In this document: one piece after another, positions 17,794 through 57,814 of the stretch
How the letters are laid out: each line of letters starts with the position of its first letter
How positions within the stretch are numbered: the first letter of the stretch is position 1
Position numbers and translations under genes: made by a program
Assembly: GCF_000379965.1 (NCBI RefSeq)
Contig: NZ_KB904327.1
Span: 682,001 to 746,000 of the forward strand
Source: Hoylesella nanceiensis DSM 19126 = JCM 15639
Lineage (GTDB): Bacteria > Bacteroidota > Bacteroidia > Bacteroidales > Bacteroidaceae
Length of the DNA stretch: 64,000 nt
Direction: 5' to 3'
The notes under the pieces: generated by a model
The model's input: only the letters and a program-made list of their open reading frames with translations
Told to the model about the DNA's origin: nothing
The model's database searches: none

Positions 17794-17925
17794 GCCTTAT
17801 TATTACATGCAAATTCTCAATGCAATTACCTCTCAAAAGCAATACTTTTAGAAGTTAAAAGAGTTGCTTTTAGTAGGAAATAACAATACTATTGAAGGGT
17901 AAGGCGATAGTATAACAAAATAAAG
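17794..17925 (+). repeat. 22-bp tandem repeat array A (about six units)
   Basis: Units start at 17816, 17838, 17860, 17882 and 17904, each exactly 22 bp. A degenerate unit precedes them at 17794. The best unit begins AGCAATACTTTTA (17838). Palindromic junctions such as TAAAAG-agttg-CTTTTA are visible around 17856-17872. Confidence 0.75.
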
Positions 17926-17964
17926 GAGCGATGCAAATAATGATTTTGTATTGCTCTTCTTTTT
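17926..17964 (+). terminator. Intrinsic terminator of the polysaccharide cluster
   Basis: Stem GAGCGATGCAAA (17926-17937) pairs with TTTGTATTGCTC (17945-17956), with two G-U pairs and a 7-nt loop, followed by TTCTTTTT. It directly abuts repeat array A. Confidence 0.7.
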
Positions 17965-18102
17965 ATACTTCAATTAAAGAGGTTCTAAAAGATTGGGAAT
18001 ACGAAGTTCAAAGAAAAATGATTCGTATGAAATAGAGTCAAAACATACTGTAATAGCATACTCAACTCACTTAGGAAAAGAGGAAAAATAAGGAATAAAA
18101 GA

Positions 18103-18149
18103 AAAGCGAATCTAAAACAAAATAATTTTACTTGCTTTAGATTCGCTTT
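18103..18149 (-). terminator. Terminator downstream of glmM
   Basis: Perfect 14-bp arms AAAGCGAATCTAAA (18103-18116) and TTTAGATTCGCTTT (18136-18149). Read on the minus strand the hairpin is followed by a T-rich run. It may work in both directions between the converging units. Confidence 0.78.
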
Positions 18150-18247
18150 ATTATGATGTGTTTTTAAGATCATTCTCAGTGCATCATAATATTACTCATA
18201 CACTAATTTTAAACGACCTTTAAACCGTGTTACATTCACTTTTGCAC

Positions 18248-19633
18248 TTATTGTGCCATACTTTTCACCACAGCAATAAGCTTTTCACCAAGTTCTTCTG
18301 CCTCTTTTAAAGTAGAAGCTTCGCTATAAACACGAATAATTGGCTCAGTGTTACTCTTGCGAAGATGTACCCATGAATTAGCAAAGTTAATCTTTACACC
18401 ATCAATATCGATGATTTCCTCATTGCTATACACTTCTTTTACCTTTGCAAGGATAGCATCTATATCTGCAGTTGGAGTAAGATCGATTCTGTTTTTCGCC
18501 ATGAAATACTCAGGATAGCTTGCCTTTAACTCGCTAGCTGTACAGCCTTTATGAGCTAAGTGTGACAAGAAAAGGGCAACACCAACAAGTGCATCACGAC
18601 CATAATGGCTCTCAGGATAAATAACTCCACCATTACCTTCACCACCAATAACAGCATTTACATTCTTCATTTGAGTGGTAACGTTCACCTCTCCCACAGC
18701 TGCTGCGGTGTATTTGCCACCATGTCGTTCAGTAACATCACGCAAAGCACGAGTTGAGCTGAGGTTAGAGACAGTGTTTCCTGGTGTTTTTGACAATACA
18801 TAATCAGCAACACTAACAAGTGTATACTCTTCTCCAAACATCTCTCCGTCCTCTGAAATAAATACCAAACGATCGACATCTGGGTCTACTACAATACCAA
18901 GATCATAGCCACCTTTAGCCATTTCTCCCATAATCTCGCCAAGGTTCTTTGCCAATGGCTCTGGATTGTGAGCAAAATCACCTGTTGGTTCACCATTAAG
19001 TACCTTATATTCAACACCTAAAGCATCTAAGAATTGAGGCATAATAATACCTCCAACAGAATTCACTGCATCGACAAGTACTTTAAAATGTGCATTTTTT
19101 ATAGCCTCACGATCAACAAGTTTCAAATTAAGAACACTGTCGATGTGACGTTGATTGAATGAATTATCTTCTGTATATTTACCCAAGTTGTCTACCGAAG
19201 CATATTCAAAGTCTTCTCTTTCAGCAATAGCTAAAACCTCTTCTCCATCTGCTGCGGTTAAGAATTCACCCTTTTCATTTAGCAGTTTCAAAGCGTTCCA
19301 CTGACGAGGGTTGTGACTTGCTGTAATAATAATACCTCCAGCAGCTTGTTCCATTGTAACTGCAAGCTCGGTAGTTGGGGTGGTTGCCATACCTATGTTT
19401 ACGACATCATAGCCAATACCCATAAGTGTTCCACACACAATGTTACGAACCATGTCGCCAGAAATACGTCCATCACGTCCAACAACAATGGTATTGCTCT
19501 TACTTTTACCGCTTCTACGAATGAAAGTGGCATAAGCTGAGGTAAATTTCACGATATCTAAAGGGTTAAGAGTATCACCTGGCTTTCCTCCGATCGTTCC
19601 TCTTATACCCGAAATGGATTTAATAAGTGTCAT
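18248..19633 (-). CDS. glmM: Phosphoglucosamine mutase
   Basis: A 461-residue alpha-D-phosphohexomutase. The active-site phosphoserine is in TASHNP (104-109, Ser106), the metal loop is DPDVDR (about 246-251), and the sugar-binding EGNGGV and C-terminal phosphate-binding RKSNTEPIIRVY are present. The form without the usual N-terminal extension, starting SISGIRGTIGG, is the GlmM type of Bacteroidota. It makes glucosamine-1-phosphate for UDP-GlcNAc, feeding peptidoglycan, LPS and the wecB reactions. It is followed within 40 bp upstream by the DUF4827 gene and probably co-transcribed with it. Confidence 0.9.
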   Translation of the reverse strand: MTLIKSISGIRGTIGGKPGDTLNPLDIVKFTSAYATFIRRSGKSKSNTIVVGRDGRISGDMVRNIVCGTLMGIGYDVVNIGMATTPTTELAVTMEQAAGGIIITASHNPRQWNALKLLNEKGEFLTAADGEEVLAIAEREDFEYASVDNLGKYTEDNSFNQRHIDSVLNLKLVDREAIKNAHFKVLVDAVNSVGGIIMPQFLDALGVEYKVLNGEPTGDFAHNPEPLAKNLGEIMGEMAKGGYDLGIVVDPDVDRLVFISEDGEMFGEEYTLVSVADYVLSKTPGNTVSNLSSTRALRDVTERHGGKYTAAAVGEVNVTTQMKNVNAVIGGEGNGGVIYPESHYGRDALVGVALFLSHLAHKGCTASELKASYPEYFMAKNRIDLTPTADIDAILAKVKEVYSNEEIIDIDGVKINFANSWVHLRKSNTEPIIRVYSEASTLKEAEELGEKLIAVVKSMAQ

Positions 19634-19670
19634 AAATTATAATAATTGTGTTAGTAATCAATATTAGTTA

Positions 19671-20315
19671 TTATTTACCTCGCTGATAAGTAACGGTATA
19701 GAAACAAGGATAAACACGCTGAGATGCGTTTGATTGTCCTTCAGAATGAGGTACAATAAGGTTCACTTTAGCTAAATTATCGCTATCATTAACCAATCTT
19801 CCAAGCTTAATATATGCTAAAGGTACAAGCCAACCGTTAGGAACTGATGTACTATTGTATATACGTGCCATTAAACTTGAACCGCTATCGAACGATGCGC
19901 TGTATGTAGAATAATAACGACGAACTGTCATTTTATCTACCAATGAAGCAAAAGCCATATCTAAGTTTGAAGATTGTAATGAGTCTGTTAATAGGTTAAT
20001 CTCCTTATAACGGCACAACACGGTTGCACTTTCGTTATGCTTAAGAATCTCTCCCACTCCTCTATTAACAATTTGCATATATACTCCTGTGTTTTTAAAC
20101 AACACATATTCATTCTTTGAAACGTCTGTTACTGTGTCATTTGCAAGGAACTCCTCTTCAGAAATAACCTTAATATTGTTATCTCTTATATACTTTGAGA
20201 TGGCAGAACGCTCACGTTCTTTCTGATCTGCATAAGTGTCAGAGTCTTTACACGAAAAAAGTGTGGCAATGCTACACAACAATACTGCTAATAAAGTGAT
20301 ATTTCTTATTTTCAT
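19671..20315 (-). CDS. DUF4827 lipoprotein
   Basis: A 214-residue lipoprotein: short basic N-terminus, hydrophobic stretch and lipobox ending at Cys22 (ATLFSC). The body has the DUF4827 pattern (VISEEEFLANDTVTDVS early, VLCRYKEINL midway, GWLVPLAYIKLGR late), a family with an FKBP-like appearance found next to glmM in related genomes. The function is not established. It precedes glmM on the same strand with 37 bp between them. Confidence 0.8.
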   Translation of the reverse strand: MKIRNITLLAVLLCSIATLFSCKDSDTYADQKERERSAISKYIRDNNIKVISEEEFLANDTVTDVSKNEYVLFKNTGVYMQIVNRGVGEILKHNESATVLCRYKEINLLTDSLQSSNLDMAFASLVDKMTVRRYYSTYSASFDSGSSLMARIYNSTSVPNGWLVPLAYIKLGRLVNDSDNLAKVNLIVPHSEGQSNASQRVYPCFYTVTYQRGK

Positions 20316-20358
20316 TAATATATAAATTTAATTGCGTTCTTTATGTTCATTGACGCCA

Positions 20359-20403
20359 TTGCACTGCAAAATGAGTGCAACAACAGCTTTATTTGCAAAG
20401 TTA
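20359..20403 (-). promoter_or_regulatory. -7 element and a dyad upstream of the DUF4827-glmM pair
   Basis: TAACTTTG (20403-20396) fits the -7 box, but no good -33 TTTG lies 19 bp upstream. Just inside the leader, TTGCACT (20359-20365) and AGTGCAA (20374-20380) form a 7-bp dyad with an 8-nt loop. Confidence 0.5.
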
Positions 20404-20462
20404 AGAAAAAGAAAAGAGAGTGAGAAAGAATATTTCTCTTTTTACGTTTTTTATGCGCCAAT

Positions 20463-20506
20463 TATTAAATAATGCCCCTCTAAAAGTATAACTTTTATAG
20501 AATTAG
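20463..20506 (+). repeat. Two degenerate 22-bp repeat units at the DUF1304 3' end
   Basis: AGTATAACTTTTATAG and following bases (20485-20506) fit the repeat consensus at most positions and include the DUF1304 stop codon. The block before it (20463-20484) ends in TCTAAA as other units do. TAAAAGT-ATA-ACTTTTA forms a small perfect hairpin here. Confidence 0.4.
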
Positions 20507-20857
20507 AAGAGATAAAAATGCCAAGAAGGGCAAAAATCCTTGCTTAATTAATATCTTCCAGCTACTTGTTAGTGCCCCATAAATTGCAACAAGAACACAA
20601 TATACAAGTAGAATGCAAGATAATTCTTTTCCGTTTTCAGAGCAAAAAGCACTATAAAGTAAGGCAAGGGCAATGAGCCCATTATAGACTCCTTGGTTCT
20701 TCATAAGTGTTGTAAAATGCTTTTCTCTCAATACATCTTGAGGAATATTGAACACTTTCGATGTCTTTGCCGATGAAGTTGCAATGGTTTCGAGATACAT
20801 AATATAAAGAAAGAGTAATGAAACCAAAGCGATTAATACTTGACTTATGATGTGCAT
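20495..20857 (-). CDS. DUF1304 membrane protein
   Basis: A 120-residue protein with four predicted membrane helices: residues about 5-22, 57-70, 78-94 and 100-119. The pattern MYLET in helix 1, then KNQGVYNGLIALAL, matches DUF1304 small membrane proteins, whose role is unknown. It stands alone on the minus strand between the DHH phosphoesterase gene and DUF4827. Its last codons overlap a degenerate repeat unit. Confidence 0.82.
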   Translation of the reverse strand: MHIISQVLIALVSLLFLYIMYLETIATSSAKTSKVFNIPQDVLREKHFTTLMKNQGVYNGLIALALLYSAFCSENGKELSCILLVYCVLVAIYGALTSSWKILIKQGFLPFLAFLSLLIL

Positions 20858-20976
20858 AGTGCTGTTTTATTATTTTCTATTTTAATTAGCTACAAGATTG
20901 GTTTTTCTTTTACATCAACATTCAACACAAAAGAATTCTCTCTTGCTGCGGTTTATGAAACTAACCAACTTAAAGA

Positions 20977-20992
20977 AGAGCATTTATGCTCT
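20977..20992 (-). terminator. Small hairpin downstream of the DHH phosphoesterase gene
   Basis: AGAGCAT-TT-ATGCTCT is a perfect 7-bp stem with a 2-nt loop, 9 bp past the stop at 21001. The following minus-strand bases are only moderately T-rich, so it is a weak terminator candidate. Confidence 0.45.
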
Positions 20993-21000
20993 ACAACTGC

Positions 21001-22038
21001 TTATTTTAAGAGGTGAGCATAATGCTCAATTGCACGACGAGTGATGTCCACCGCCTCTTCAATAGTGCAGTTTAAGCGACCTCCACTTGCATTTAAATGG
21101 CCTCCACCATTATAAAATTGTGCTGCCATTTCATTACATGGGAAGTTATCAACAGAACGAAGACTAACTAAAATTGTATTCTCTTTCAAACTATCTTCAC
21201 GCAAAGCAATAGATAGTTTCATTCCTTTTATCTTCAAAGGCTCGTTCACTAAACCCTCTGCATCACCCTTTGTGAAATGGAAATTATCCATATCTTCTCG
21301 AGTAATAGCGAAATATGAGGCATGGAAATCATCTAAAACATTGAGTTTTTGACACATCATATAACCTCTAAAACGTATTGCCCAAGCACTATAATTGTTA
21401 TAGACGTTGCGATAGATCTTATCTTTATCGAAGCCTTTTGTTAGCAACTGACTGATAATAAAGAATATTTCGGGATAAGAAGAGTTGTAAGTAAATCCTC
21501 CTGTGTCTGTCATCATTCCACAATAGATCGCTACGGCACAATGCTTTTCAATGGCATCAAAATAATTCATCTGCCATATCAAGCGGAAAACGATCTCACT
21601 TGTACTGCTAATTGCTGGATTAGAGATGCACAATAGAGTATCCATTGAAGGATTTAAATGGTGATCTATCATTATTTTAGGGGCTTTGCATGCCTCTAAA
21701 GCATCTTTCATCTCCTCTACTCTACTTGCAGTATTGTAGTCTAAACAGAATACTAAGTTGGCAGAATCAAAGAGTTCGTTTACTTTTTCAGGGTGTTTAT
21801 CGTGTCTAACAACCTTTTCTACATGAGGAAGCCAACGCAAAAAATCGGGGAAAGCGTCGGGAACAACAACAGAAACATTCTTCTTAAAGCATGTAGTTAA
21901 AAAGTCGTACCAAGCCAAAGACGATCCTAAAGCATCCCCATCAGGACTTTTATGGCAGGTAATAACAATATTATCGGCACTTTCTATGGCATTTCTCAGG
22001 GTATTAATCTCTATCTCGTTTAGTAAATTTATATTCAT
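21001..22038 (-). CDS. DHH-family phosphoesterase (NrnA-like)
   Basis: A 345-residue protein with the DHH/DHHA1 layout. CHKSPDGDALGSS (28-40) supplies metal ligands, FCLDYN has Asp100, IDHH (124-127) is the DHH motif, and GGGHLNASGG (about 316-325) is the DHHA1 substrate motif. NrnA proteins hydrolyse nano-RNA and 3'-phosphoadenosine 5'-phosphate, and related members act on cyclic dinucleotide products. Length and motif spacing fit NrnA rather than RecJ. The gene appears to be transcribed alone. Confidence 0.9.
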   Translation of the reverse strand: MNINLLNEIEINTLRNAIESADNIVITCHKSPDGDALGSSLAWYDFLTTCFKKNVSVVVPDAFPDFLRWLPHVEKVVRHDKHPEKVNELFDSANLVFCLDYNTASRVEEMKDALEACKAPKIMIDHHLNPSMDTLLCISNPAISSTSEIVFRLIWQMNYFDAIEKHCAVAIYCGMMTDTGGFTYNSSYPEIFFIISQLLTKGFDKDKIYRNVYNNYSAWAIRFRGYMMCQKLNVLDDFHASYFAITREDMDNFHFTKGDAEGLVNEPLKIKGMKLSIALREDSLKENTILVSLRSVDNFPCNEMAAQFYNGGGHLNASGGRLNCTIEEAVDITRRAIEHYAHLLK

Positions 22039-22123
22039 ATTTTAACCTTATTCTTTTGTACCGAAAGAAGTCTTAGAGATGAATCGTTTATCAACTACTC
22101 ATCTCTAAGAATCTTATTATCAT

Positions 22124-23035
22124 TTAAAATAACTTGTTAGGATATACTCCTTCGTTAACAAGAGCTTGGATTCTATCAACAGTTGCTTGTCTGTCGGCAG
22201 AATAAGTCACTCCAAACCACTTACTTGTAGTGTCTAGTACTTTTACGGTTGAAGTGCCTTTGTTCACCAATTCATTTACCATTAAAGGAATAAAGAATTC
22301 TGCTTTAGGGTTAGCTTGGTTCTTTGGATCGCTTAAGAATTGTTTGAAATAAGCATCGCTATGTGCAAAATAATCTGGAGTAAAGCCCCACATGTTCATA
22401 GAAACAGGAGTATTATCTTCAATTGCTACCCATTCTCCGTTCTCATCTTTATACGATACTTTTCCATCAACACGCATAATTTCTGTGCGTTCTACAACAG
22501 TTGTAAGTAAGTCGTTTTCATCTTTAGAACAAACACCACGTGCAACGGTTCCATTTTCACTAAGAGTGTTACCTACACGGAAGCCAACCATAGCGTAAGT
22601 GTTTGTTGAATTGTCTGGAAGATCAGCTAAGAACTTACCGATAACCATAAAAGAGTCACGATTATAGAAGTCATCACAGTTGATAACACAGAATGGTTCA
22701 TGAATCAAATCCTTAGCCATCATCACTGCATGGTTTGTTCCCCATGGCTTTTCACGGCCTTCTGGCACTGTAAAACCTTCAGGAAGTGCATCTAATGATT
22801 GGTAGCATACCTCTGTAGGAATGTGTCCTTCATACTTAGAAAGCACCTTTTCACGGAATTCTTGTTCAAAATCCTTACGAATAACGAATACGATTTTACC
22901 GAATCCAGCCTTGATTGCATCATAAATAGAATAGTCCATGATGGTCTCTCCATTAGGACCTAATCCATCAAGTTGCTTCAATCCGCCGTAACGGCTGCCC
23001 ATACCTGCAGCCAAAAGAACTAATGTTGGTTTCAT
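22124..23035 (-). CDS. Sugar-1-phosphate nucleotidyltransferase family protein
   Basis: A 303-residue protein with the nucleotidyltransferase start LVLLAAGMGSRYGGLKQLDG (5-24) and an NCDDFYN metal-binding segment (about 119-125). It most resembles the NTP-transferase family near UTP-glucose-1-phosphate uridylyltransferases but lacks a clear substrate signature. It probably makes an NDP-sugar or similar activated phosphate. No sugar pathway gene sits next to it, so the substrate stays open. Confidence 0.8.
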   Translation of the reverse strand: MKPTLVLLAAGMGSRYGGLKQLDGLGPNGETIMDYSIYDAIKAGFGKIVFVIRKDFEQEFREKVLSKYEGHIPTEVCYQSLDALPEGFTVPEGREKPWGTNHAVMMAKDLIHEPFCVINCDDFYNRDSFMVIGKFLADLPDNSTNTYAMVGFRVGNTLSENGTVARGVCSKDENDLLTTVVERTEIMRVDGKVSYKDENGEWVAIEDNTPVSMNMWGFTPDYFAHSDAYFKQFLSDPKNQANPKAEFFIPLMVNELVNKGTSTVKVLDTTSKWFGVTYSADRQATVDRIQALVNEGVYPNKLF

Positions 23036-23148
23036 AAAAATATGATTTAAAGGGTTATTAATTAATTTATTATTGTTTATTTCTTTATCTATACTATTTT
23101 ATTATATCACTCATTTCGAGTTGAAAGTTCTACTTTAAGCCTCTATTC

Positions 23149-32352: not shown

Positions 32353-32484
32353 TCCAATAATATCCCATCCTAATAGCAATGTTTATTCGCCTCATTTTCT
32401 ATGCTTTTAACATCTAAACACATCGCTATTGTAATGTAATAGCAATACTTTTAAAACAATACTATATAACAATCAGTAAATAAA
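32353..32484 (+). repeat. 22-bp tandem repeat array B (six units)
   Basis: Units start at 32353, 32375, 32397, 32419, 32441 and 32463, all in register at 22 bp. The clearest are 32375 (AGCAATG), 32397 (CTATGCTTTTA) and 32441 (AGCAATACTTTTA). GCTATT-gtaatgt-AATAGC at 32425-32443 shows the dyad nature of the junctions. Confidence 0.75.
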
Positions 32485-33858: not shown

Positions 33859-34605
33859 TTACATATTCATGCCACCATCAACCTGAATCACTTGTCCGCT
33901 GATGTAACTAGACATGTCTGAAGCCAAGAATAGAGCACAAGAAGCGATATCTTCTACTGTACCACCACGGCGAAGAGGTATCTTGCTTGTCCATTCTTTA
34001 CGTACTTCGTCGCTCAATGCTTGTGTCATTGCAGTGTCGATGAAGCCTGGAGCAATTGCATTTGCACGCACTCCCTTAGGTCCCATCTCTTGAGCTACAC
34101 TCTTAGCAAGTGCAATCATAGCTGCTTTTGATGCTGCATAGTTTGCTTGTCCTGCATTACCATGCACACCAACAACGCTTGCCATGTTGATGATTGAACC
34201 ACCACGTTGACGCATCATGATTGGAGTACAAGCATGAATGAAGTTAAATGCACTCTTAAGATTCACGCCAATAACGGCATCCCATTGTGCTTCTGTCATA
34301 CGAAGCATTAATCCGTCTTTTGTGATTCCTGCATTATTAACCAAAATATCGATTGAACCAAATTCTTCTTTCACTTGATTTACAACCTGAGCAGATTGTT
34401 CAAAATCGGCAGCATTGCTAGCATAACCCTTAGCTTTTACGCCTAATGCAAGAAGTTCTTCTTCGGTTTGTTTACCATTTTCATCTATTACAAGGTCTGT
34501 AAACGCTACATTTGCGCCTTCTGCGGCAAACTTTAAAGCTATTGCCTTACCAATACCACGAGCTGCTCCTGTTACTAAAGCAGTCTTACCTGTTAATAAT
34601 CCCAT
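33859..34605 (-). CDS. fabG: 3-oxoacyl-[acyl-carrier-protein] reductase
   Basis: A 248-residue short-chain dehydrogenase. The cofactor motif TGAARGIG is at 12-19, NNAG at 90-93, and the catalytic set is Ser143, Tyr156 and Lys160 (YAASK). The ending SSYISGQVIQVDGGMNM is typical of FabG. It reduces beta-ketoacyl-ACP with NADPH in fatty-acid elongation. A TetR regulator gene lies 81 bp upstream on the same strand, perhaps in one unit. Confidence 0.93.
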   Translation of the reverse strand: MGLLTGKTALVTGAARGIGKAIALKFAAEGANVAFTDLVIDENGKQTEEELLALGVKAKGYASNAADFEQSAQVVNQVKEEFGSIDILVNNAGITKDGLMLRMTEAQWDAVIGVNLKSAFNFIHACTPIMMRQRGGSIINMASVVGVHGNAGQANYAASKAAMIALAKSVAQEMGPKGVRANAIAPGFIDTAMTQALSDEVRKEWTSKIPLRRGGTVEDIASCALFLASDMSSYISGQVIQVDGGMNM

Positions 34606-34686
34606 GTTTTGATGTTGTTTATTATTAATACTATTATATGTTCTTTATTAAAGAATCAATATTGTTTATTTATTAATTAGCTTGAT

Positions 34687-35283
34687 TTAAAGAATTAATC
34701 CCGACTTACCCAAGGCTCCATACACTACCTTAGCAACCAAAGGCTTACTGCTTTCGGCTGTTAATCCATGACCTAATCGCCCGTAAATGAAGGGCACCTC
34801 AAGTCCTTTAATACAATAATGAGTGATGTCTGCCACAAGTTCTACGTTTTCAATATCGAACTCTCCTTCGGCTTTTCCTTCGGCATAAACCTTTCGAAAT
34901 AATTCTATTTCGTCTTCATCAAATTTCTTTCGAACCTTTTCTACCATCCAAATATTTCGAAAGAACTCTGCTCTAAGATTTCCATTGCGCACAACTGTCT
35001 CTTTAATCATACTTAAGTGTGTGTAGATAAGCTCAATAATCTTATCTTGAGGACGCATTTTCATTGCTGCCACCTCATCTAATCGGTCAGATAAACGCTC
35101 TAACTCTGATTCGATAACAGCGTAGTAAACATCGTCTTTCTTACTAAAATAAGTGTAAAGAGTGCGTCGCCCTTTTCCAGAAGCAACTGCAATATCATTC
35201 ATTGTGGTGTTGGCTATACCGTTTTTAGCAAACAGCTGTCGGGCAACATCAACCAATTTTTGCCGTGTTTTAGATATTGACAT
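34687..35283 (-). CDS. TetR/AcrR-family transcriptional regulator
   Basis: A 198-residue protein from the ATG at 35283. An upstream ATG at 35316 would place an odd extension within about 10 nt of the predicted transcription start. The N-terminal TetR helix-turn-helix reads RQKLVDVARQLFAKNGIANTTMNDIAVASGKGRRTLYTYFSKKDD. The ligand domain is not informative. With fabG immediately downstream, control of fatty-acid synthesis is plausible but inferred. A -7 box TACTTTTG lies at 35340-35333. Confidence 0.88.
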   Translation of the reverse strand: MSISKTRQKLVDVARQLFAKNGIANTTMNDIAVASGKGRRTLYTYFSKKDDVYYAVIESELERLSDRLDEVAAMKMRPQDKIIELIYTHLSMIKETVVRNGNLRAEFFRNIWMVEKVRKKFDEDEIELFRKVYAEGKAEGEFDIENVELVADITHYCIKGLEVPFIYGRLGHGLTAESSKPLVAKVVYGALGKSGLIL

Positions 35284-35543: not shown

Positions 35544-35576
35544 TTTGTCTATAACCTCGATATATAATTTTGTTAT

Positions 35577-35664
35577 AATGATGCTTTTATATCGCAATAG
35601 TAATGCTTTTAGGGCATAACAGCAATACTTTTACATCGTAATTACTACTCTTTTATATCTTGAT
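35577..35664 (+). repeat. 22-bp tandem repeat array C (four units) abutting galK
   Basis: Units start at 35577, 35599, 35621 and 35643. The middle two open with AGTAATGCTTTTA and AGCAATACTTTTA. The array ends on the last base of the galK stop codon (35664-35666, minus strand). Confidence 0.8.
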
Positions 35665-41042: not shown

Positions 41043-41527
41043 AAAGTGTAAATATCTGTGTTTAGAAGGCATCTATAAATAATACATTTTCTTATCATAA
41101 AGCAAGAGCATCAAGTCTCGTCTGTATCTAAGATCCTTATAACAAGGGTACAAAATTATAAAAAAAAGAGAAAACAACAAAGGAGAAACAGAGTAACAGA
41201 GTTGCTTTAAAGAATAAAACAACATTATTCTTTAGAGGGACTTGCCTATAAAGGAATAGGATTTCTGCTCCACTCAAGCGCTTTAAATGATCCTTATTCT
41301 GTTGATTAACTTGAAAATAGGTTCGGGCTATTCTGTTTATATCATACAGACACGCCTTTTTCCCAAAGAAGAGAAAAGCAATTGAAAACAGAAGAATACT
41401 TTCTAGAGAACAAAAGGATTGATTTTACAATTCAAAAGTAATGCTATTACCTTGCAAAAGCATTGCCATTGCAGGGTAATAGCATTGAGTTGAATGAGTA
41501 AATAAAACGCAAGTAAAAATGAATTGC
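41043..41527. other. Intergenic region with repeat array D
   Basis: This 485-bp gap between folC and the Omp28-like gene has no gene. Repeat array D (41394-41503) occupies its folC-proximal end and includes the strong hairpin 41441-41487. Nothing else stands out in 41043-41393. I found no clear promoter for the Omp28-like gene. Confidence 0.65.
41394..41503 (+). repeat. 22-bp tandem repeat array D (five units) with an 18-bp hairpin
   Basis: Units start at 41394, 41416, 41438, 41460 and 41482. Inside, AATGCTATTACCTTGCAA (41441-41458) and TTGCAGGGTAATAGCATT (41470-41487) pair over 18 positions with a single G-U and an 11-nt loop. The array ends 24 bp from the folC stop. Confidence 0.82.
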
Positions 41528-42866: not shown

Positions 42867-42952
42867 TTTATCAAAATAAAGGTGTAAAAAGGTCCTATTG
42901 CATGCAAACACATACCATTTACACTGCAATGAACTACCTTTCTACACCTTTA
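42867..42952 (+). repeat. 22-bp repeat array E forming a long palindrome between dnaJ and folC
   Basis: Units lie at 42867-42888, 42889-42908 (20 bp), 42909-42930 and 42931-42952. Outer arms 42877-42892 and 42937-42952 (TAAAGGTGTA... against ...TACACCTTTA) match at 15 of 16 positions. An inner ATTGCA/TGCAAT pair (42897-42902, 42925-42930) extends the fold. It may also serve as the dnaJ 3' structure. Confidence 0.65.
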
Positions 42953-47035: not shown

Positions 47036-47053
47036 CAGCTCTCAAGCCTTAGT

Positions 47054-47075
47054 AACAATACTTTTGATTTCTAAT
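47054..47075 (+). repeat. Solo 22-bp repeat unit
   Basis: One unit opening AACAATACTTTTG and ending TTCTAAT matches the family consensus at about 19 of 22 positions. It lies upstream of the GNAT gene. Confidence 0.55.
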
Positions 47076-47153
47076 AAATCACTTTCTATTGCCTTCCTTA
47101 TCATTATCTTGGATTAAGCCTCACACCTATTCTATATACTGGGCAAAGCTTTT

Positions 47154-49466: not shown

Positions 49467-49490
49467 GTTGTTTAATATAAAAAATATGTG

Positions 49491-49498
49491 CAAAAGTA
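49491..49498 (-). promoter_or_regulatory. -7 element for the PBP1A gene
   Basis: TACTTTTG on the minus strand fits TAnnTTTG; no TTTG lies at the -33 position. It is 25 bp from the ATG at 49466 and helps fix that start. Confidence 0.5.
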
Positions 49499-49584
49499 CA
49501 TATTTCTTTTCAAATAAAGATGCTATCCATAAAATTATGATTACCTTTAGTGCTCAAATAAATATCATCTATTCAAATCGTATT

Positions 49585-50532: not shown

Positions 50533-50537
50533 TGATT

Positions 50538-50990
50538 ATGAAAAAAGAACGACTTGTTGCCGCTATTGAAAACGGTACTGTTATCGACCATATTCCTGCC
50601 GAAAAAACTTATCAAGTGGTTAGTCTTCTAGGCTTAGAGCACACTCTTTCGCCTGTAACTATTGGCTACAACTATCCTTCGAGCAGATTAGGAACAAAAG
50701 GAATTGTAAAGATTTCAAATAAATTCTTTACCGATGAAGAAATCAACCGCTTATCGGTTATTGCACCAAAGATTATCCTTAACACCATTCACAACTTTGA
50801 AGTTACTCAAAAGAGAATGGTAGAAACACCTGATGTTCTACGTGGAATAATTAAATGTAACAATCCAAAGTGTATCACCAACAATGAACCAATGTCTACA
50901 ATATTCCACACTACTGGTGAAGATAAGCAGATTTTAAGATGCCATTATTGTGATATGGAACAAAATATCAATGAAGTTGAGTTGGTTTAA
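50538..50990 (+). CDS. pyrI: Aspartate carbamoyltransferase regulatory subunit
   Basis: A 150-residue protein beginning MKKERLVAAIENGTVIDHIP at 50538. An ATG at 50532, overlapping the pyrB stop, would add two residues. The nucleotide-binding allosteric domain is followed by a zinc domain with CNNPKC and, 20-odd residues on, CHYC, giving the four ligands. It carries feedback control of the ATCase holoenzyme. It forms a tight operon with pyrB and is followed by a strong terminator. Confidence 0.96.
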   Translation: MKKERLVAAIENGTVIDHIPAEKTYQVVSLLGLEHTLSPVTIGYNYPSSRLGTKGIVKISNKFFTDEEINRLSVIAPKIILNTIHNFEVTQKRMVETPDVLRGIIKCNNPKCITNNEPMSTIFHTTGEDKQILRCHYCDMEQNINEVELV

Positions 50991-51026
50991 ACAAACCTTC
51001 ACAAGGTTATTGTATTATAATATAAT

Positions 51027-51055
51027 AAGGAGAGACGTTGGTTCTCTCCTTTTTT
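51027..51055 (+). terminator. Terminator of pyrBI
   Basis: AAGGAGAGA (51027-51035) pairs with TCTCTCCTT (51043-51051) around a 7-nt loop, followed by a T-run to 51055. Confidence 0.88.
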
Positions 51056-51073
51056 AGGACCAGTATATAACAA

Positions 51074-51108
51074 AAAAGAGTTACTTCTATGTTAGAAATA
51101 ACTCTTTT
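51074..51108 (-). terminator. Bidirectional hairpin downstream of tRNA-Cys
   Basis: AAAAGAGTTA (51074-51083) pairs with TAACTCTTTT (51099-51108). After one mismatch TTCTA pairs with TAGAA around a 3-nt loop. It lies 7 bp past the tRNA 3' end. Confidence 0.82.
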
Positions 51109-51115
51109 AAAGGAG

Positions 51116-51186
51116 AGGCATCTAGCAGAGTCGAACTGCTCTACACGGTTTTGCAGACCGTTACCTAACCGATCGGCCAAGATGCC
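51116..51186 (-). tRNA. tRNA-Cys (anticodon GCA)
   Basis: Seventy-one nucleotides on the minus strand, 51186 to 51116. The acceptor stem GGCATCT (51186-51180) pairs with AGATGCC. The anticodon loop CTGCAAA has GCA at 51154-51152. The T arm contains GTTCGAC. Residue 73 is U, as usual for tRNA-Cys. CCA is not encoded. Confidence 0.95.
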
Positions 51187-51204
51187 ATATCTTTTATGCG
51201 AGTG

Positions 51205-51235
51205 CAAAGATATACTTTTTATCTGACTCTACAAA
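51205..51235 (-). promoter_or_regulatory. Promoter of tRNA-Cys
   Basis: TTTG (51235-51232), 19 bp and TATCTTTG (51212-51205) match the consensus exactly, about 20 bp before the mature tRNA 5' end. Confidence 0.82.
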
Positions 51236-51244
51236 ATTTTCGCT

Positions 51245-51433
51245 TCATTTTTTAACAGAACAACTACTTTTAGAGTGTTTTATTGCCTTTGCCTGCTCTA
51301 TTTTATTGTGCAAATCGCAGCCTGTACAACCTTCGCAACCTGTTTTTTTTCTTGTAAAACTCTTGTAAAGATGCACCACAACATAGCCTAACGCTATGGC
51401 AACAACTATAAAAACAATTACATATTGTATCAT
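51245..51433 (-). CDS. FeoB-associated Cys-rich membrane protein
   Basis: A 62-residue protein: one membrane helix (4-23), then a short basic stretch and GCEGCTGCDLHNKIEQ with clustered cysteines 33, 36 and 39, plus Cys58. This is the pattern of the small Cys-rich peptide often encoded beside feoB. Here no feoA or feoB is nearby; glyA is upstream and tRNA-Cys downstream. The role is not known; iron handling near the inner membrane is inferred from the family name only. Confidence 0.82.
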   Translation of the reverse strand: MIQYVIVFIVVAIALGYVVVHLYKSFTRKKTGCEGCTGCDLHNKIEQAKAIKHSKSSCSVKK

Positions 51434-51498
51434 ATAAAAGAAATATAGGGGCTGTAAAACCGCCCCTATACCATATCTATTATTATGCGATTTCTATA

Positions 51499-52779
51499 TT
51501 AATAAGCGAATAAAGGATAATCTTTCATTGTAGCATTAACCTTTTCTCTCACCATCTTAATCACTCTTTCGTCTTCAGGATTATTCAATACTTGCTCAAT
51601 TAATTCAGCAATAAGCACCATTAAATCCTCTTTTGCACCACGTGTTGTGATAGCTGGAGTACCTAAACGAATTCCCGATGTTTGGAAAGCAGAACGAGAA
51701 TCGAATGGAACCATATTCTTATTAGCAGTGATATCAGCCTCAACAAGTGCCTTTTCTGCTACCTTTCCTGTTAAATCAGGATATTTAGAACGAAGATCAA
51801 CCAACATAGAGTGGTTATCTGTACCACCACTTATGATACCAAATCCACGTCCAATAAGCTCATCAGCTAATACCTTTGCATTCTTTTTCACTTGCAAAGC
51901 ATATTCTTTCCATGATGGTTGAAGGTTCTCATAGAATCCAACAGCCTTAGCACCGATAACGTGTTCAAGTGGTCCACCTTGTATTCCAGGGAATACAGAC
52001 GAGTTAATGATTTGGCTCATCATCTTCACTTCACCCTTAGGAGTAGTTAATCCCCAAGGATTCTCAAAGTCTTTACCCATCAAAATAACACCTCCACGTG
52101 GTCCACGCAGTGTCTTATGAGTTGTTGAAGTTACGATGTGTGCATATTGAACAGGATTATCTAGCAAACCTGCAGCAATTAAACCAGCTGGGTGAGCCAT
52201 ATCTACTACAAGGATTGCACCTACTGCATCGGCAATCTCACGCATGCGTTTGTAATCCCATTCACGACTATAAGCCGAACCACCACCTATAATTAACTTT
52301 GGTTTATGTTGATGAGCAAGACGCTCCATTTCATCATAATCAACACGTCCAGTTTCTTCATTTACATTATAACCAATAGGATTATAAAGCAAACCAGATG
52401 TGTTTACAGCACTTCCGTGGCTCAAGTGACCTCCATGTGCAAGGTTTAAACCCATAAAGGTGTCACCTGGTTTAAGAACAGAAAGGAACACTGCTTGGTT
52501 AGCTTGCGCTCCTGAGTGAGGTTGAACATTAGCAAACTCGGCACCAAAAAGTTGTTTAACTCGTTCAATTGCAAGTGTTTCAACTTGGTCTACTACTTCA
52601 CAACCACCATAATAACGGCGTCCTGGTAGTCCTTCGGCATACTTATTAGTTAAATAAGAGCCCATTGCTGCCATCACTTCGTCACTAACAAAGTTTTCTG
52701 AAGCAATAAGTTCAACTCCTTTTAATTGTCTTTGATGCTCTAATTTGATAAGATCGAAAATCTGATTATCTCTTTCCAT
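51499..52779 (-). CDS. glyA: Serine hydroxymethyltransferase
   Basis: A 426-residue PLP enzyme. [10 protein letters not shown] is at about 22-31, [18 protein letters not shown] at 47-64 and [11 protein letters not shown] around 120. The PLP lysine is in [15 protein letters not shown] (about 221-235). The C-terminal [13 protein letters not shown] is present. It interconverts serine and glycine with tetrahydrofolate. A -7 box TACATTTG lies at 52835-52828. It is 65 bp upstream of the Cys-rich peptide gene. Confidence 0.97.
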
Positions 52780-52881
52780 TGTGCTGATATATTAAAATAA
52801 GACTGATAATTCATTTGAATTACGTTGCAAATGTAATCAAAAAAAGTGAGAATTATGCCACTTCAACTTTTAATTTCTCTA

Positions 52882-54177
52882 TTATATTTTTATAGGGATA
52901 GCCAAAATAAACTCCGTTAAATCGGCTTTGGTTGCATGAGCCTTTACTTGTGCACCAAGAGTGAGGTTCTTTAACTTATTGAAAGTGTAGTAAATACCCA
53001 CATGTTCGTAGTAGGGTTTCTCTATAATTGAGGCATTTTCTCCCATTGCTCGATAGAGATAATAGCCCAATGCTACAGACAATGAGAGATTATTATAGAA
53101 AACTTGATGCTTTGCTGCTATACCAACCGACCATCGACTATGCTTCATTGCTATGCCATGACTTTGATCTAACTCTCTCACTCTATTGGCATAAGTACCA
53201 TAAAATACATCAACTCCCACTCCAGAAGCCCATCTTTGCGCATAACGATACATCAAATCGCTACGAAACGAACAAGCTGTATAAAACTTAAAGTTTCCTG
53301 TTCGATATTCAGGGTCAGTGGGTTGTGTTCCGAATTGTGTTCTCTGCCATTCTTCATTAAGTGTCTTTCCACCTAAGCCAAAGGTAAACTGAGTGTAGAA
53401 ATAGGGCTTAAAACGCTTTTGAATGGTATCTTTTGAATGATTGAGAATGACTTTTCGCTCGGGAGAATACACTAATCCGAGCATTGGACCGAAATAGTTT
53501 GCGCCCTTATTAGGGCGATTAAGTGCGCCATTACTATGGTGAAAGAAATCCAAGCCTGCTCTTATTCCCCATTTATCATCAAGATAATAGGTTGCTTTTA
53601 GAGCCGAGCCAAAATAGATAAGCAAGTGAGAACCAATAAATTCATTATCTGCATTGGTTAGTTTGTCGTATTTTTTTAGTGCATAAGCCACTCCAAAATT
53701 CAACTGATAAGCAAAATCCCAATGCTTTGTTCGATAAATAGGACGATAGAAAAAGCCATAAACACTGGCTATACTACCTAACTTTGAGTGGTAATTCACA
53801 GGCTCTAACAATCCCCAGTCGCTATCTTTTTCACGGTGCATGGTTACATTCGACATCGTATAGCGCATGGCAACACCCAGTGTTGGATAGTTATAATCAC
53901 TCGAATAGCTATTGCTATCTTTAGGAAGTGCGGTATAATGATAAGCCATTTCGACAGACATGGTATTGCGCTTTTTTAGCCATTTGCGCACATACTCATC
54001 TAAAACCAATACTTTTGCAGGTTCTACCGACACCGAAAAGCCATGATTAGAAGCCACACTATCTTTATTTTCCGCTTTTAAATATAAAGGAATTACGAAG
54101 AGAGATATACATAATAATAGAACAAGTTGATATCTCTTACGACATAACGGGAAATAAAGGAGTGAGCTATTCATCAT
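52882..54177 (-). CDS. PagL-like lipid A deacylase (acyloxyacyl hydrolase family)
   Basis: A 431-residue outer-membrane barrel candidate with a long signal region (about 15-36) ending LKAEN. The PagL marker FFHHSNGALNRPNKGANYFG (211-230) holds the catalytic His-x-Ser-Asn group (His213/214, Ser215, Asn216). PagL removes the 3-O-linked acyl chain of lipid A. This form is more than twice the length of proteobacterial PagL, as is usual in Bacteroidota, with extra strands at both ends. The substrate is inferred. Confidence 0.76.
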   Translation of the reverse strand: MMNSSLLYFPLCRKRYQLVLLLCISLFVIPLYLKAENKDSVASNHGFSVSVEPAKVLVLDEYVRKWLKKRNTMSVEMAYHYTALPKDSNSYSSDYNYPTLGVAMRYTMSNVTMHREKDSDWGLLEPVNYHSKLGSIASVYGFFYRPIYRTKHWDFAYQLNFGVAYALKKYDKLTNADNEFIGSHLLIYFGSALKATYYLDDKWGIRAGLDFFHHSNGALNRPNKGANYFGPMLGLVYSPERKVILNHSKDTIQKRFKPYFYTQFTFGLGGKTLNEEWQRTQFGTQPTDPEYRTGNFKFYTACSFRSDLMYRYAQRWASGVGVDVFYGTYANRVRELDQSHGIAMKHSRWSVGIAAKHQVFYNNLSLSVALGYYLYRAMGENASIIEKPYYEHVGIYYTFNKLKNLTLGAQVKAHATKADLTEFILAIPIKI

Positions 54178-54194
54178 ACTTTTGAAATCAAATA

Positions 54195-55568
54195 CTAAGA
54201 TGTGGTGGTGTTATGGTGCATATTTTGAGTTTGAATGTCCATTTCTTTAAAGGTCATTCGCACCACTGGAACTGATATTAAGAATGCCAACAGGTCGCTA
54301 ATAGCCTGACACATCTCTACTCCTTGTAGCTGAAAGAGACGTGGAAGAATTAATATCAAAGGAATAAAGAACAATCCACTTCGTGCAGACGCCAACAAAT
54401 TAGCTCTCCACGGCTTACGAATTGTTTGTAAAAGCATATTACTAACAATAGTAAAACTTAAAAGGGGCAACACCGAAAGCTGCCATTTCAATGCCTCACA
54501 CCCTATTGCAACCACTTCAGCATCACGTCTAAACAGGTCTATAATCTCAACAGGAAAACACCAACCTGCACACGACAATAATAAAAGGAAGATGAAACAA
54601 ACTTTCATCGAGAACCAAAACCCTTGTTTTACTCGTTGATATTGTTGTGCTCCATAGTTGAAACCACAGAAAGGTTGAAAGCCTTGTCCAAAGCCAATAA
54701 CGGCTGCAAGTACCATCATTGTACATCTACTTACAATAGACATTGCTGCAATTGCAACGTCTCCATACGCACTTGCGGCAGTATTGAGTAATATCATTGC
54801 AATACAAGCCAAGCCTTGACGTGACAAAGAGGGTGTTCCTCCTGCAATAATTTCTTTAAAGAGGGCTACTTTGGGGGTAAAATTGCGCCACGAGTATCTT
54901 ATATTTCCCCCTAAATAGGTCATTCTTAATAAGATAAGGAAACTAACAAACTGACCTATTACTGTTGCAAGTGCAGCACCTGCAACGCCCATATCAAAAA
55001 CAAAAATAAACAAAGGATCGAGCAACACATTCACTATTGCGCCTGAAAGAATGCCCCATAAAGCCAAACGTGCATTGCCCTGAAAACGCATTTGGTTGTT
55101 CATTGTTAACGAAGAGGTGAAGAAAGGCGTTCCAAGTAACGATATTCCAAGATATTGTTCGGTGTAAGGTAGAATGGTTGGAGTACTTCCTAACCACAAA
55201 GACAGGGGTGTTATGCACGCTTCTCCAATCAAAAGAACAGCTATACCCAATGTAAATGAGAGGAAAAAGCCCGTAGATGCCATACGTTGTGCATTATCAT
55301 GGCGTTGCGCTCCCAATTCTCTTGAGATATAATTTCCTGATCCATGCCCAAAGAAAAAGCCTATTGCCTGCACAAAAAACATAACAGAAAACACTACACC
55401 CACAGCTGCTGTGGCTTGAGTGCTGAGCTTTCCGACAAAGAAAGTATCGGCAATATTATAAAATCCTGTTATGAGCATAATCACAATAGAGGGCAATGCC
55501 ATCTTGATTATTGCACGAGAAACAGGTGCTTGCGTTAATAACTGATAGTTGTTACTTTCTTTTTTCAA
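54195..55568 (-). CDS. MATE family efflux transporter
   Basis: A 457-residue protein with 12 membrane helices. The N-terminal half has LPSIVIMLITGFYNIADTFF (29-48) and the conserved GHGSGNYISRELG. The second half repeats the fold, with GFGQGFQPFCGFNYGAQQY (about 291-309). MATE proteins export drugs or metabolites using sodium or proton gradients. It starts 121 bp after the SIMPL gene and is 17 bp from the PagL-like gene, with which it may be co-transcribed. Confidence 0.9.
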   Translation of the reverse strand: MKKESNNYQLLTQAPVSRAIIKMALPSIVIMLITGFYNIADTFFVGKLSTQATAAVGVVFSVMFFVQAIGFFFGHGSGNYISRELGAQRHDNAQRMASTGFFLSFTLGIAVLLIGEACITPLSLWLGSTPTILPYTEQYLGISLLGTPFFTSSLTMNNQMRFQGNARLALWGILSGAIVNVLLDPLFIFVFDMGVAGAALATVIGQFVSFLILLRMTYLGGNIRYSWRNFTPKVALFKEIIAGGTPSLSRQGLACIAMILLNTAASAYGDVAIAAMSIVSRCTMMVLAAVIGFGQGFQPFCGFNYGAQQYQRVKQGFWFSMKVCFIFLLLLSCAGWCFPVEIIDLFRRDAEVVAIGCEALKWQLSVLPLLSFTIVSNMLLQTIRKPWRANLLASARSGLFFIPLILILPRLFQLQGVEMCQAISDLLAFLISVPVVRMTFKEMDIQTQNMHHNTTTS

Positions 55569-55590
55569 TGGTGCTAAAATCTTATCATAT

Positions 55591-55628
55591 AATAAGGCGA
55601 ACCCAACTAAGTGGTATTTCGCCTTATT
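55591..55628 (-). terminator. Hairpin downstream of the SIMPL gene
   Basis: AATAAGGCGAA (55591-55601) and TTCGCCTTATT (55618-55628) form a perfect 11-bp stem with a 16-nt loop. It lies between the SIMPL stop and the MATE start. Confidence 0.65.
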
Positions 55629-55689
55629 TTATATTTCCATATTAATCTTTTATCTTACTTAAAAGATGTTGTTTAGTCTTTTATTTCTC

Positions 55690-56406
55690 TTAATCTTTAA
55701 GTGAATAAGTGATGGTTGTAACCACTCTTACCTTCTTTATTTCTGGTGTATTCTCATCTCTGTCTTCGATTGAGAATTGACCTTGGTCAGCAGAAACAAT
55801 CTTATTCAACTTACTCTTACTATTCTTTGCAAACTGATCTGCAGCCAATTGCGCATTAGCAATAGCCTCCTCGAGCATTTTGGGCTTCATATCTTTGAAA
55901 GAAATATACTCGTATGAGATACTATTTTCATAATCATCGCTAAGTACTGCAATTCCTTCTTGAAGCAATTTACCACGTGCTTTCAAAGCTGCTTGAACCA
56001 CTTTTACATTGCGAGAGATAACTGTTACAACCGAAGTCATATTATATCTATTTACAATTCGAGATGGATCGTAAGCATCTACCACATTATCATCTACCTT
56101 TGGAGCATTGATAGTGATTTCATTTTCTTTTATTCCATGTTGCATAAGGAATTGCTTAATCTTTTGTTGTGTACGTTCTACCCTCTCATAAAGATCACTT
56201 AAATCGTTTCCTGCATCCTTTGTTACAATGGGCCAAGTCACTTTATCTGCCTCAACTTCACGTTCAGAAAGTCCCTTAACGGTTACTCTTCTATCACGAT
56301 TTGTAAAATTGTCGATGCCAGCTTTTAAGCTCAAGCCCAAGACAATAATAGCAATTGCAAGTATTGCAGGCCCTGCAACACCTAAAATTAAACGCTGTCT
56401 GTTCAT
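55690..56406 (-). CDS. SIMPL-domain (DUF541) protein
   Basis: A 238-residue protein with one N-terminal membrane segment (about 8-27) and a periplasmic body. VTVKGLSEREVEADKVTW (41-58) is the SIMPL domain start. The YNMTSVVTVISRNVKVVQAAL and ANAQLAADQFAKNSKSKL segments complete it. SIMPL proteins are widespread periplasmic proteins of poorly defined function. It lies 54 bp downstream of the wecB paralogue and may share its transcript. Confidence 0.85.
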   Translation of the reverse strand: MNRQRLILGVAGPAILAIAIIVLGLSLKAGIDNFTNRDRRVTVKGLSEREVEADKVTWPIVTKDAGNDLSDLYERVERTQQKIKQFLMQHGIKENEITINAPKVDDNVVDAYDPSRIVNRYNMTSVVTVISRNVKVVQAALKARGKLLQEGIAVLSDDYENSISYEYISFKDMKPKMLEEAIANAQLAADQFAKNSKSKLNKIVSADQGQFSIEDRDENTPEIKKVRVVTTITYSLKD

Positions 56407-56460
56407 AATTTTCTACTTAATTAATTGGTTAACTATTCTGTTTTTCTATGTATATACACT

Positions 56461-57558
56461 TTAGGCAGTGGTTAAAAGAATACGAACGATGCGATCGGCA
56501 CTACGTCCGTCCCATCGATCAGGAATACCACTGTGTTTCCATTTATCGCTAACCATATCGTTTAGATATTGGTTTAATAATTCTACATCATCACCCACAA
56601 GGACGTTTGTACCCACTTTCACGGTTTCGATGTGTTCGGTATAGCTGTTAAGAGTGATACAAGGAACACCATTAAAGGTTGCTTCTTCTGCCACATTACC
56701 TGAGTCTGTAATCACACCACACGCATTTTTTGCCAAGAAAGCAAATGAAAGATAAGACAAAGGCTCAACAACTCGAATAGAATCAGCGCATGAATGTTCG
56801 CTAATCCATTTGTTTACAACCTTTGCAGCATCGTCTCTGAGAGGAGCAATGACTGTCTTCTTATCTGCAACTTTCAACAAAGCAGTTAGTACTTCGTCTA
56901 CTTTCTTCTCGTCTTTGATAAGCGCTTTGCGGTTAAGAGTGAATAAAAGATAGTTCTTTTCTTTCAAATTCAATTCTTCTAAAAGATGAGATGTAGATGT
57001 TCTTGTGTGATTAAAGCGAAGAGTGTCCATCAAAATATTACCTACCATGTAGATATTTGATGAGTCTACTCCCTCTTTAATAGCAACACTATTACCGCCA
57101 ATACCAGCTGTAAACAAGTAATCGCTCAAACCATCGATAACCAATCGGTTGATTTCCTTAGGCATATTGATATCGAAACTGCGTGTTCCTGCAACCAAAT
57201 GTGCAAGTTTAATGCCTTGTTTTTTGGTGACAATTGCAGCAGCAAGTGTTGAAGCAAGGTCGTCAACAACAATCACTACATCGGTTTTATGCTGTGTTAA
57301 ATAAGTTTCGAAAGCAGACATTACACGGCCTGTAAGCTCATTTAAGTTCTCACAAACAACATCAAGATACACGTTGGGCTGTTCTATTTGAAGGTCATCA
57401 AATAGAGTTGGCTCTAAAGTTTCATCGCTTTTAGAACCTGTGTATACTAATTCGAAAGCTACTTGCTCTCCGTTTTCCTGGAATCTCTTTATAGAATGAA
57501 TGATAGGTGCTACCTTTATAAAATTAGGACGAGCGCCTGCCACAATGCAAATATTCAT
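56461..57558 (-). CDS. UDP-N-acetylglucosamine 2-epimerase family protein (second copy)
   Basis: A 365-residue member of the WecB fold: ICIVAGARPNFIKVAPIIHS at the N-terminus (AGARPN in place of FGTRPE), VVIVVDDLASTLAAA where HGDT is usual, and the C-terminal DSGNVAEEATFNGVPCITL with a shortened tail. The replaced HGDT motif and other changes suggest a different activity or substrate from the wecB at 13774. It is isolated from glycosyltransferases. It has a promoter with one mismatch. Confidence 0.8.
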   Translation of the reverse strand: MNICIVAGARPNFIKVAPIIHSIKRFQENGEQVAFELVYTGSKSDETLEPTLFDDLQIEQPNVYLDVVCENLNELTGRVMSAFETYLTQHKTDVVIVVDDLASTLAAAIVTKKQGIKLAHLVAGTRSFDINMPKEINRLVIDGLSDYLFTAGIGGNSVAIKEGVDSSNIYMVGNILMDTLRFNHTRTSTSHLLEELNLKEKNYLLFTLNRKALIKDEKKVDEVLTALLKVADKKTVIAPLRDDAAKVVNKWISEHSCADSIRVVEPLSYLSFAFLAKNACGVITDSGNVAEEATFNGVPCITLNSYTEHIETVKVGTNVLVGDDVELLNQYLNDMVSDKWKHSGIPDRWDGRSADRIVRILLTTA

Positions 57559-57591
57559 CTTTTATTCTTTTATTGTATTTCGATATACAGG

Positions 57592-57622
57592 CAAAGTAAC
57601 AAAAATAAATTGAAACTTCAAA
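57592..57622 (-). promoter_or_regulatory. Promoter of the second wecB-like gene
   Basis: TTTG (57622-57619), 19 bp and TTACTTTG (57599-57592) on the minus strand, one mismatch in the -7 box. The start codon is at 57558. Confidence 0.65.
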
Positions 57623-57682
57623 ACTTTTAAGTTGATGTTTTTTATTTATCACATCAAATTTTGATGCGCCTTAAATAAGATG

Positions 57683-57814
57683 AATAATGTATTGCGTTTA
57701 CAAAGGAATTGTGAGGTGATTATAAAAGGAATGCTTTTAGGGTGTAAAAGGATTGATATTACACTCTAAAAGCATTGTAATTATAGCTCAATAGCATTGT
57801 TTTTAGCCCACTCC
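57683..57814 (+). repeat. 22-bp tandem repeat array F (six units) with an 18-bp hairpin, entering a gene
   Basis: Units start at 57683, 57705, 57727, 57749, 57771 and 57793. AATGCTTTTAGGGTGTAA (57730-57747) pairs with TTACACTCTAAAAGCATT (57759-57776) over 18 positions with one G-U and an 11-nt loop. The last two units cover the stop and last ten codons of the sulfatase maturase gene. Confidence 0.82.

Follow-up and report, generated by a model that had tools for sequence, protein, structure and literature searches.

Quartets of 22-bp-spaced palindromes in Hoylesella nanceiensis: candidate binding elements of a chromosome-architecture protein

The stretch of DNA analysed here (the window; 64,000 bp, 36% G+C) is C1:682001-746000 of Hoylesella nanceiensis DSM 19126, whose genome (G000) comprises 2.65 Mb in 12 contigs. 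The window carries five copies of an 85-bp element, the quartet, which consists of four 19-bp palindromes, RYAAWAGC-AWT-GCTWTTRY, with three free bases at each join and a centre-to-centre distance of 22 bp (Table 1). An earlier note on this DNA had listed six arrays of a 22-bp repeat. Five of them were recovered with scores of 50 to 73 bits, whereas the sixth (42867-42952) does not belong to the family: no quartet in it scored above -19.7, and 125 non-array positions of the window, itself included, scored equally high or higher. The palindrome scores of a proposed solo unit at 47054 (8.8 bits at best) and of degenerate units at 1349 (4.1 bits) and 20485 (11.7 bits) are at chance level, because palindromes of at least 14 bits occur 13.5 times in 844 kb of shuffled sequence. 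The 22-bp period turned out to be exact, and the arrays are indeed rows of dyads two helical turns apart. They are no clustered regularly interspaced short palindromic repeats (CRISPR) either, as had been stated, having only 3-bp separators and no unique spacers. Where four to six units per array had been counted, most arrays resolve to four palindromes. The common plus-strand orientation that had been described is meaningless, since every unit is palindromic and hence strandless; with up to two mismatches, the consensus given in the note occurs in the genome 93 times forward and 114 times in reverse (reversed control, 0 and 0).

Table 1. Quartets of the window, with positions counted from its first letter.
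Quartet	Position	Palindromes	Score (bits)	Outside units (bits)	Setting
1	17811-17895	17811-17829, 17833-17851, 17855-17873, 17877-17895	51.0	-8.2, -10.8	convergent gap between a glycosyltransferase-like gene (+, end 17726) and a phosphoglucomutase/phosphomannomutase-like gene (-, end 18248)
2	32370-32454	32370-32388, 32392-32410, 32414-32432, 32436-32454	52.0	-9.1, -11.0	
3	35572-35656	35572-35590, 35594-35612, 35616-35634, 35638-35656	50.3		immediately downstream of a galactokinase-like gene (-, 3′ end 35664)
4	41410-41494	41410-41428, 41432-41450, 41454-41472, 41476-41494	69.1		34 bp downstream of a Mur-ligase-like gene (-, 3′ end 41528)
5	57722-57806	57722-57740, 57744-57762, 57766-57784, 57788-57806	72.9		overlaps the 3′ end of a radical-SAM/SPASM-like gene (-, 57781-59010)

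When searching beyond the window, we used a main sample of 844 kb (C1:282001-746000, C2:280001-500000 and C5:180001-340000), which was chosen and not random, some stretches having been picked as dense and others as sparse. A symmetric 22-column profile trained on the 444 kb sampled first found 62 rows there at a threshold of 16, only one of them a single unit. In five shuffles of a 284-kb part, no row was found at 16, and at 18 one of the five shuffles gave one. With a score for four consecutive palindromes, 104 quartets were found in the 844 kb, while shuffled sequence (one copy of each of three segments) contained none of 20 bits or more. Across the whole genome a two-unit pattern matched 362 times and its reversed control never, which bears out the earlier proposal of a dispersed family well above background. 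Scaling the 104 quartets to the genome gives about 330, a rough figure because the sampled stretches were not drawn at random.

The arrays alternate two 8-bp half-sites, RYAAWAGC and GCTWTTRY, and the 3-bp separators between them are in turn AWT and free. Of 61 arrays, 36 contained eight half-sites, and all but one of those (35) had core-centred ends, which makes four complete AWT-centred palindromes. Averaged over the 104 quartets, units -2 to +5 scored -9.8, -8.3, 14.0, 16.0, 15.7, 14.6, -8.9 and -9.6 bits. Each of the four palindromes exceeded 8 bits in 85-94% of the quartets and the flanking units in at most 2%, and the letters AA and TT, at distances of 6 and 7 bases from the palindrome centre, were conserved in 96-98%. 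Outside the quartets, the 844 kb held 30 palindromes of at least 14 bits (13.5 when shuffled) and seven of at least 18 bits (0.5 when shuffled), compared to 416 quartet sites. As strong palindromes outside quartets are so few, the quartet looks like the unit, rather than the single palindrome. The free separators are diverse (57 of the 64 possible triplets among 312 separators). Beyond the four palindromes, the sequence information in 35 aligned arrays is at background level, with neither a conserved flank nor a terminal repeat.

Each palindrome could form an RNA hairpin with an 8-bp stem and a 3-nt loop, and many arrays lie downstream of genes, as would suit hairpins or intrinsic terminators in 3′ untranslated regions. 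However, when the two halves were checked for covariation, only two of 22 mirror pairs (distance 10 about either centre) showed a z of about 2, the others being near 0 or negative. The mean folding energy of 90 elements of at least 45 bits was -17.7 kcal/mol, poorer than the -18.6 kcal/mol obtained with re-dealt right halves (standard deviation of means 0.37), and an Rfam scan of the window at gathering scores returned only a tRNA. An RNA role, which the earlier note had considered as transcript 3′-end structures, is thus highly improbable. Symmetric halves that neither covary nor fold better than re-dealt ones point to a DNA-protein site and not to RNA, and symmetry without pairing fits a protein dimer.

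A simple open reading frame caller assigned 99 of the 104 quartets to gaps (57 tandem, 29 convergent, 13 divergent) and left five unplaced; the sample offers 189 tandem, 58 convergent and 65 divergent gaps of at least 100 bp. Convergent gaps were favoured over divergent ones (29/58 versus 13/65, Fisher P 0.0006; tandem gaps, 57/189), and in tandem gaps the arrays were mostly closer to the upstream stop (25/36, first 444 kb). Both preferences would be expected if a dedicated protein on the quartets formed road-blocks at gene ends, stopping RNA polymerase or insulating transcription units. This is the strongest rival explanation, but we consider it unlikely: divergent gaps hold 13 quartets, every second convergent gap is empty, and the spacing described below is not what gene-end devices would lead one to expect.

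The typical interval between quartets is about 7-8 kb. In the first samples the coefficient of variation of the spacing was 0.485 (36 arrays) and 0.439 (25 arrays), compared to 0.81-0.90 for equal numbers placed in random intergenic gaps. Over the 844 kb it was 0.64, with 0.94 expected. None of 101 intervals was shorter than 2.1 kb (18.5 expected from random gaps) and ten were shorter than 3.5 kb (32.8 expected). In a relative with a different core (G004), 12 arrays in 100 kb had a coefficient of 0.31 (P 0.0001 against uniform placing, without control for gaps). No quartets were found in the polysaccharide-gene cluster at the window start, nor in the 32 kb of C2:368-400 kb, where several of eight proteins searched were McrBC-, GmrSD-, RHS- or patatin-like. 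The latter region (C2:368000-400000; L246, L247), with its McrBC, GmrSD-type restriction, RHS/DUF285 and patatin genes, is likely a defence island. At the other end of the window, a single open frame (61817-63913) matches arabinan endo-1,5-alpha-L-arabinosidase in its N-terminal part and galactose-1-epimerase in its C-terminal part.

We also compared array positions between H. nanceiensis and its relatives. The loci of the relatives were retrieved because they bear arrays, so position rates are biased. In a one-sided test relying on aligned DNA on one flank (28 loci shown), an array was present at about the same position in L115, L081, L057, L043, L120 and L094, and missing in L063, L044, L093 and L105 as well as in G004 at two places in L160. 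For instance, in L115 (metagenome-assembled genome SUG860) an array adjoins a galactokinase-like gene, as quartet 3 does, and in L081 (Cattle_2_mag_37) an array adjoins DNA matching the other side of quartet 3 (window 33860-35283). In a comparison that rests on one flanking gene, a G004 array with another core (L143:18978-19065) lies about 320 bp upstream of the orthologue (66% identity) of a gene that in H. nanceiensis has a quartet 352 bp upstream (C1:672665). When both flanking genes were still adjacent in a relative, the array was missing in 5/5 cases, concerning three own arrays; these five were the comparable cases from 99 arrays, and in one of them a flank match reached only 36%. One such gap, bounded by genes that we take to be frr and rsgA, measures 206 bp with its quartet in H. 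nanceiensis, 3 bp in Cattle_2_mag_37 and 80 bp in P. brunnea. Since arrays are missing although both flanks are kept, it is the spacing that is conserved and not the neighbour gene, which again speaks against road-blocks. Together, the flank tests indicate that array places turn over while spacing and form persist.

An array that is there in one genome and missing in another, between genes that otherwise adjoin, could also reflect, as could the many dispersed copies, a non-autonomous mobile element, one of the roles raised in the earlier note, or an expanding minisatellite. We regard this as very unlikely. Mobility is contradicted by the lack of a conserved flank or terminal repeat and of a Y1 transposase (Y1_Tnp, PF01797, RAYT: no match in G000, 5 of 14 control genomes positive), and separator diversity and even spacing fit neither a mobile element nor a minisatellite. 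The minisatellite was rejected as well because most arrays have four units and units of one array resemble each other no more closely than they resemble units of other arrays, a slight excess at columns 0 and 21 aside.

The two-unit pattern matched at least 106 stretches of named genomes, those listed all being titled Prevotella, Hoylesella or Prevotellaceae. With the own core, it matched 4 of 40 genomes, own included, and under strict filters profile R1 was found in 9 of 121 genomes of the family (own genome 74, G043 20, the other seven 1-3 each). A search for period-22 arrays that is independent of the H. nanceiensis motif was applied to samples of other genomes. Among same-genus genomes, it gave 21 arrays in 180 kb of G004 (core GCAAAAGGCNGCCTTTTGC), 8 in 160 kb of G010 (GTAAAAGRTNAYCTTTTAC), 8 in 120 kb of G016 (TGTAATNTGANNCANATTACA) and 3 in 100 kb of G043 (AAAAGCTNAGCTTTT). 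In other genera of the same family, there were 6 arrays in 100 kb of G045 (TCAAACACTAGTGTTTGA), 5 in 54 kb of G042 (AACNTACGTANGTT) and 3 in 100 kb of G046. The core of P. brunnea is TGCAAAAGCTWAGCTTTTGCA, and the units listed for Cattle_2_mag_37 are mostly CAAAAGCTATGCTTTTG or its complement. The 22-bp architecture is therefore shared by several species of the genus and three samples from other genera, while the core differs.

In the same-genus samples G004, G010, G016 and G043, between 0 and 3 rows were found at the control periods 20, 21, 23 and 25 or after shuffling; many strong arrays were picked up off-period at lower scores, at 23 in G000 and at 21 and 23 in Cattle_2_mag_37. The species profiles were symmetrised in learning, but the raw profiles of clear cases are themselves symmetric (r 0.81-0.98). 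Eight half-sites were the commonest form in the parts of the genomes covered (G004 13/20, Cattle_2_mag_37 16/21, SUG860 7/9, P. brunnea 8/19). We counted as weak G003, with 4-5 arrays of a seemingly alternating unit, and G138, with three short arrays of near-alike units. In G003 (L141 from about 2400, 6000 and 17826), unit types GGAAACGCCCTTC and AAAGAGAGCCTCTCT seem to alternate, which would suggest an underlying period of 44 bp. The samples of G041, G047, G050, G051 and G054 (same family) yielded no clear 22-bp arrays, and neither did 60 kb each of G031, G029, G030 and G025 (other families). In G045, the TCAAACACTAGTGTTTGA arrays are accompanied by another 22-bp palindromic unit, which is CCAAAGTATAATACTTTGG-like (L180 from 8489, L181 from 8674).

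Species-specific cores would also be expected of self-recognition marks that tag own core DNA for uptake, repair or defence, akin to the DNA uptake sequences of Haemophilus and Neisseria, which are likewise high-copy, species-specific and, by some reports, evenly spaced: excerpts of PMC1939737 report a significant even spacing found by Karlin et al. The absence of quartets from the two gene clusters examined and the lack of an exact viral-contig match agree with such marks. A viral origin of the quartets was itself rejected, as the form with the frame AAWAGC-NNN-GCTWTT, the one scanned, had no exact match in IMG/VR contigs. But uptake sequences are single and non-palindromic, with 35-65% of them in reading frames (PMC1939737, in excerpt), whereas 99 of the 104 quartets were placed in gaps and their sites come mostly in fours. 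We regard self-recognition as quite improbable.

Even spacing, indifference to particular genes, avoidance of divergent gaps and absence from two clusters suit a chromosome-wide system of anchors or bridges, and the difference in core between species implies a reader with changing DNA contacts. Our preferred reading, to which we give about an even chance, is that quartets are binding elements of a putative, fast-evolving chromosome-architecture protein. One homodimer of a dedicated protein would occupy each 19-bp palindrome, and the 22-bp step of two helical turns would place four dimers on the same face of the DNA as one eight-subunit complex. Bound at some 330 fairly even 7-8 kb steps in intergenic DNA of the core chromosome, such complexes could act as regularly placed anchors or bridges that fold it, in a role like that of MatP on matS but along the whole chromosome. 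If the DNA-reading part of the binder evolves quickly, all elements of a species would change together. More tentatively, quartets may represent a new class of loop anchors every 7-8 kb in which site and reader change together, like eukaryotic centromere DNA and its binders. Among the roles suggested in the earlier note, binding of a nucleoid protein thus fits best, as a prediction; that note could not have shown the main features, which are four palindromes per element, their even distribution and a core that differs from species to species.

Two candidates for the binder were tried. Lrp/AsnC octamers were considered because four dimers suit four sites. However, the recognition helix VSGAAIHQR is identical in the own protein and the orthologues of G004, G010, G016, G043, G045 and G046, although the cores differ, which leaves the core change unexplained by these orthologues (30 frames extracted; G045a and G012c, on the wrong strand, unused; G009a and G042b forming a third group). 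G000 has a single AsnC_trans_reg match (C8:45706-45906), other same-genus genomes searched having two or three, and the VSRAAIHQR type of Lrp/AsnC seems to be missing in it. A Noc-like ParB paralogue was rejected since 11 of 13 genomes, own included, have one HTH_ParB match; in G045 and G029 a second match was weak and only partial.

Several observations weigh against an architectural role. Neither of the two candidate binders held up, some arrays keep their neighbour gene in relatives, and the choice of gap type is non-random, which a role in transcription predicts likewise. Over 844 kb the intervals vary more than in the first samples, to which long holes and weaker arrays dropped by the quartet caller contribute; in the hole at C1:567-596 kb, for instance, lie two weaker three-unit arrays that it missed. 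Eight core-centred half-sites are rarer in G016 (2/8), G010 (1/7) and G045 (2/6), where arrays are often longer than four palindromes, and 180 kb of the same-genus G009 gave only low-complexity 22-bp hits. No bias towards origin or terminus is demonstrable: with their positions unmapped, quartets look as dense as usual, and no sparser, around the GC-skew switch (C1, about 360 kb), which judging from the skew sign is more likely the terminus than the origin. As a separate observation, G009 contains long head-to-tail arrays of a 7-bp unit, GTCAACT, GTCAATT or GTCACCT (L146 from 844, L147 from 8729).

If quartets do serve chromosome architecture, sequence alone would reveal loop anchors and make models of nucleoid folding testable. 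The change of core within a kept frame would let one trace, from species to species, the joint change of a protein and its hundreds of sites, and quartets may help to distinguish native from acquired DNA in these bacteria.

Among known systems, iterons of plasmid origins likewise comprise several consecutive units that measure about 22 bp, or two helical turns, but they are direct repeats at one origin, whereas quartets are palindromes at hundreds of chromosomal places. In repetitive extragenic palindromic (REP) sequences, the stem is maintained by compensatory change. Like quartets, REP sequences and bacterial interspersed mosaic elements, which belong with REP-associated tyrosine transposases (RAYT), are high-copy, intergenic and palindromic (PMC2817692, abstract). 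Quartets differ from them in the missing Y1_Tnp, the lack of covariation, the mostly four units at 22 bp and the even spacing. Palindromic candidate RNAs have been described in Bacteroidetes, most of the palindromic ones being predicted terminators (part of PMC8040213). The kinship to Porphyromonas elements suggested in the earlier note was not supported. BrickBuilt of Porphyromonas gingivalis shares short tandem units, an intergenic position and a Bacteroidales host with the quartets, but its 23-nt unit AGAYCATARTATCCTCTCRTRTG lies in a miniature inverted-repeat transposable element with leader, tail and terminal inverted repeats (PMC4596501, in part). The quartet unit has 22 bp and a different consensus, and these accessory parts are absent, information outside the palindromes being at background.

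In the open-access literature, the part covered by our search, we came across no account of a bacterial system of four-site elements spread evenly over the whole chromosome. Quartets resemble the sites of MatP/matS, of Noc with its Noc-binding sites (NBS) and of SlmA with its SlmA-binding sites (SBS), all dispersed palindromic protein sites with many copies per chromosome. According to the portions available of PMC3116907 and PMC4726725, there are 23 matS sites in Ter, about 70 NBS and 24-52 SBS, with NBS and SBS under-represented near Ter. Unlike these sites, those of the quartets come mostly in fours, form roughly 330 elements that are fairly evenly spread, and have species-specific cores.

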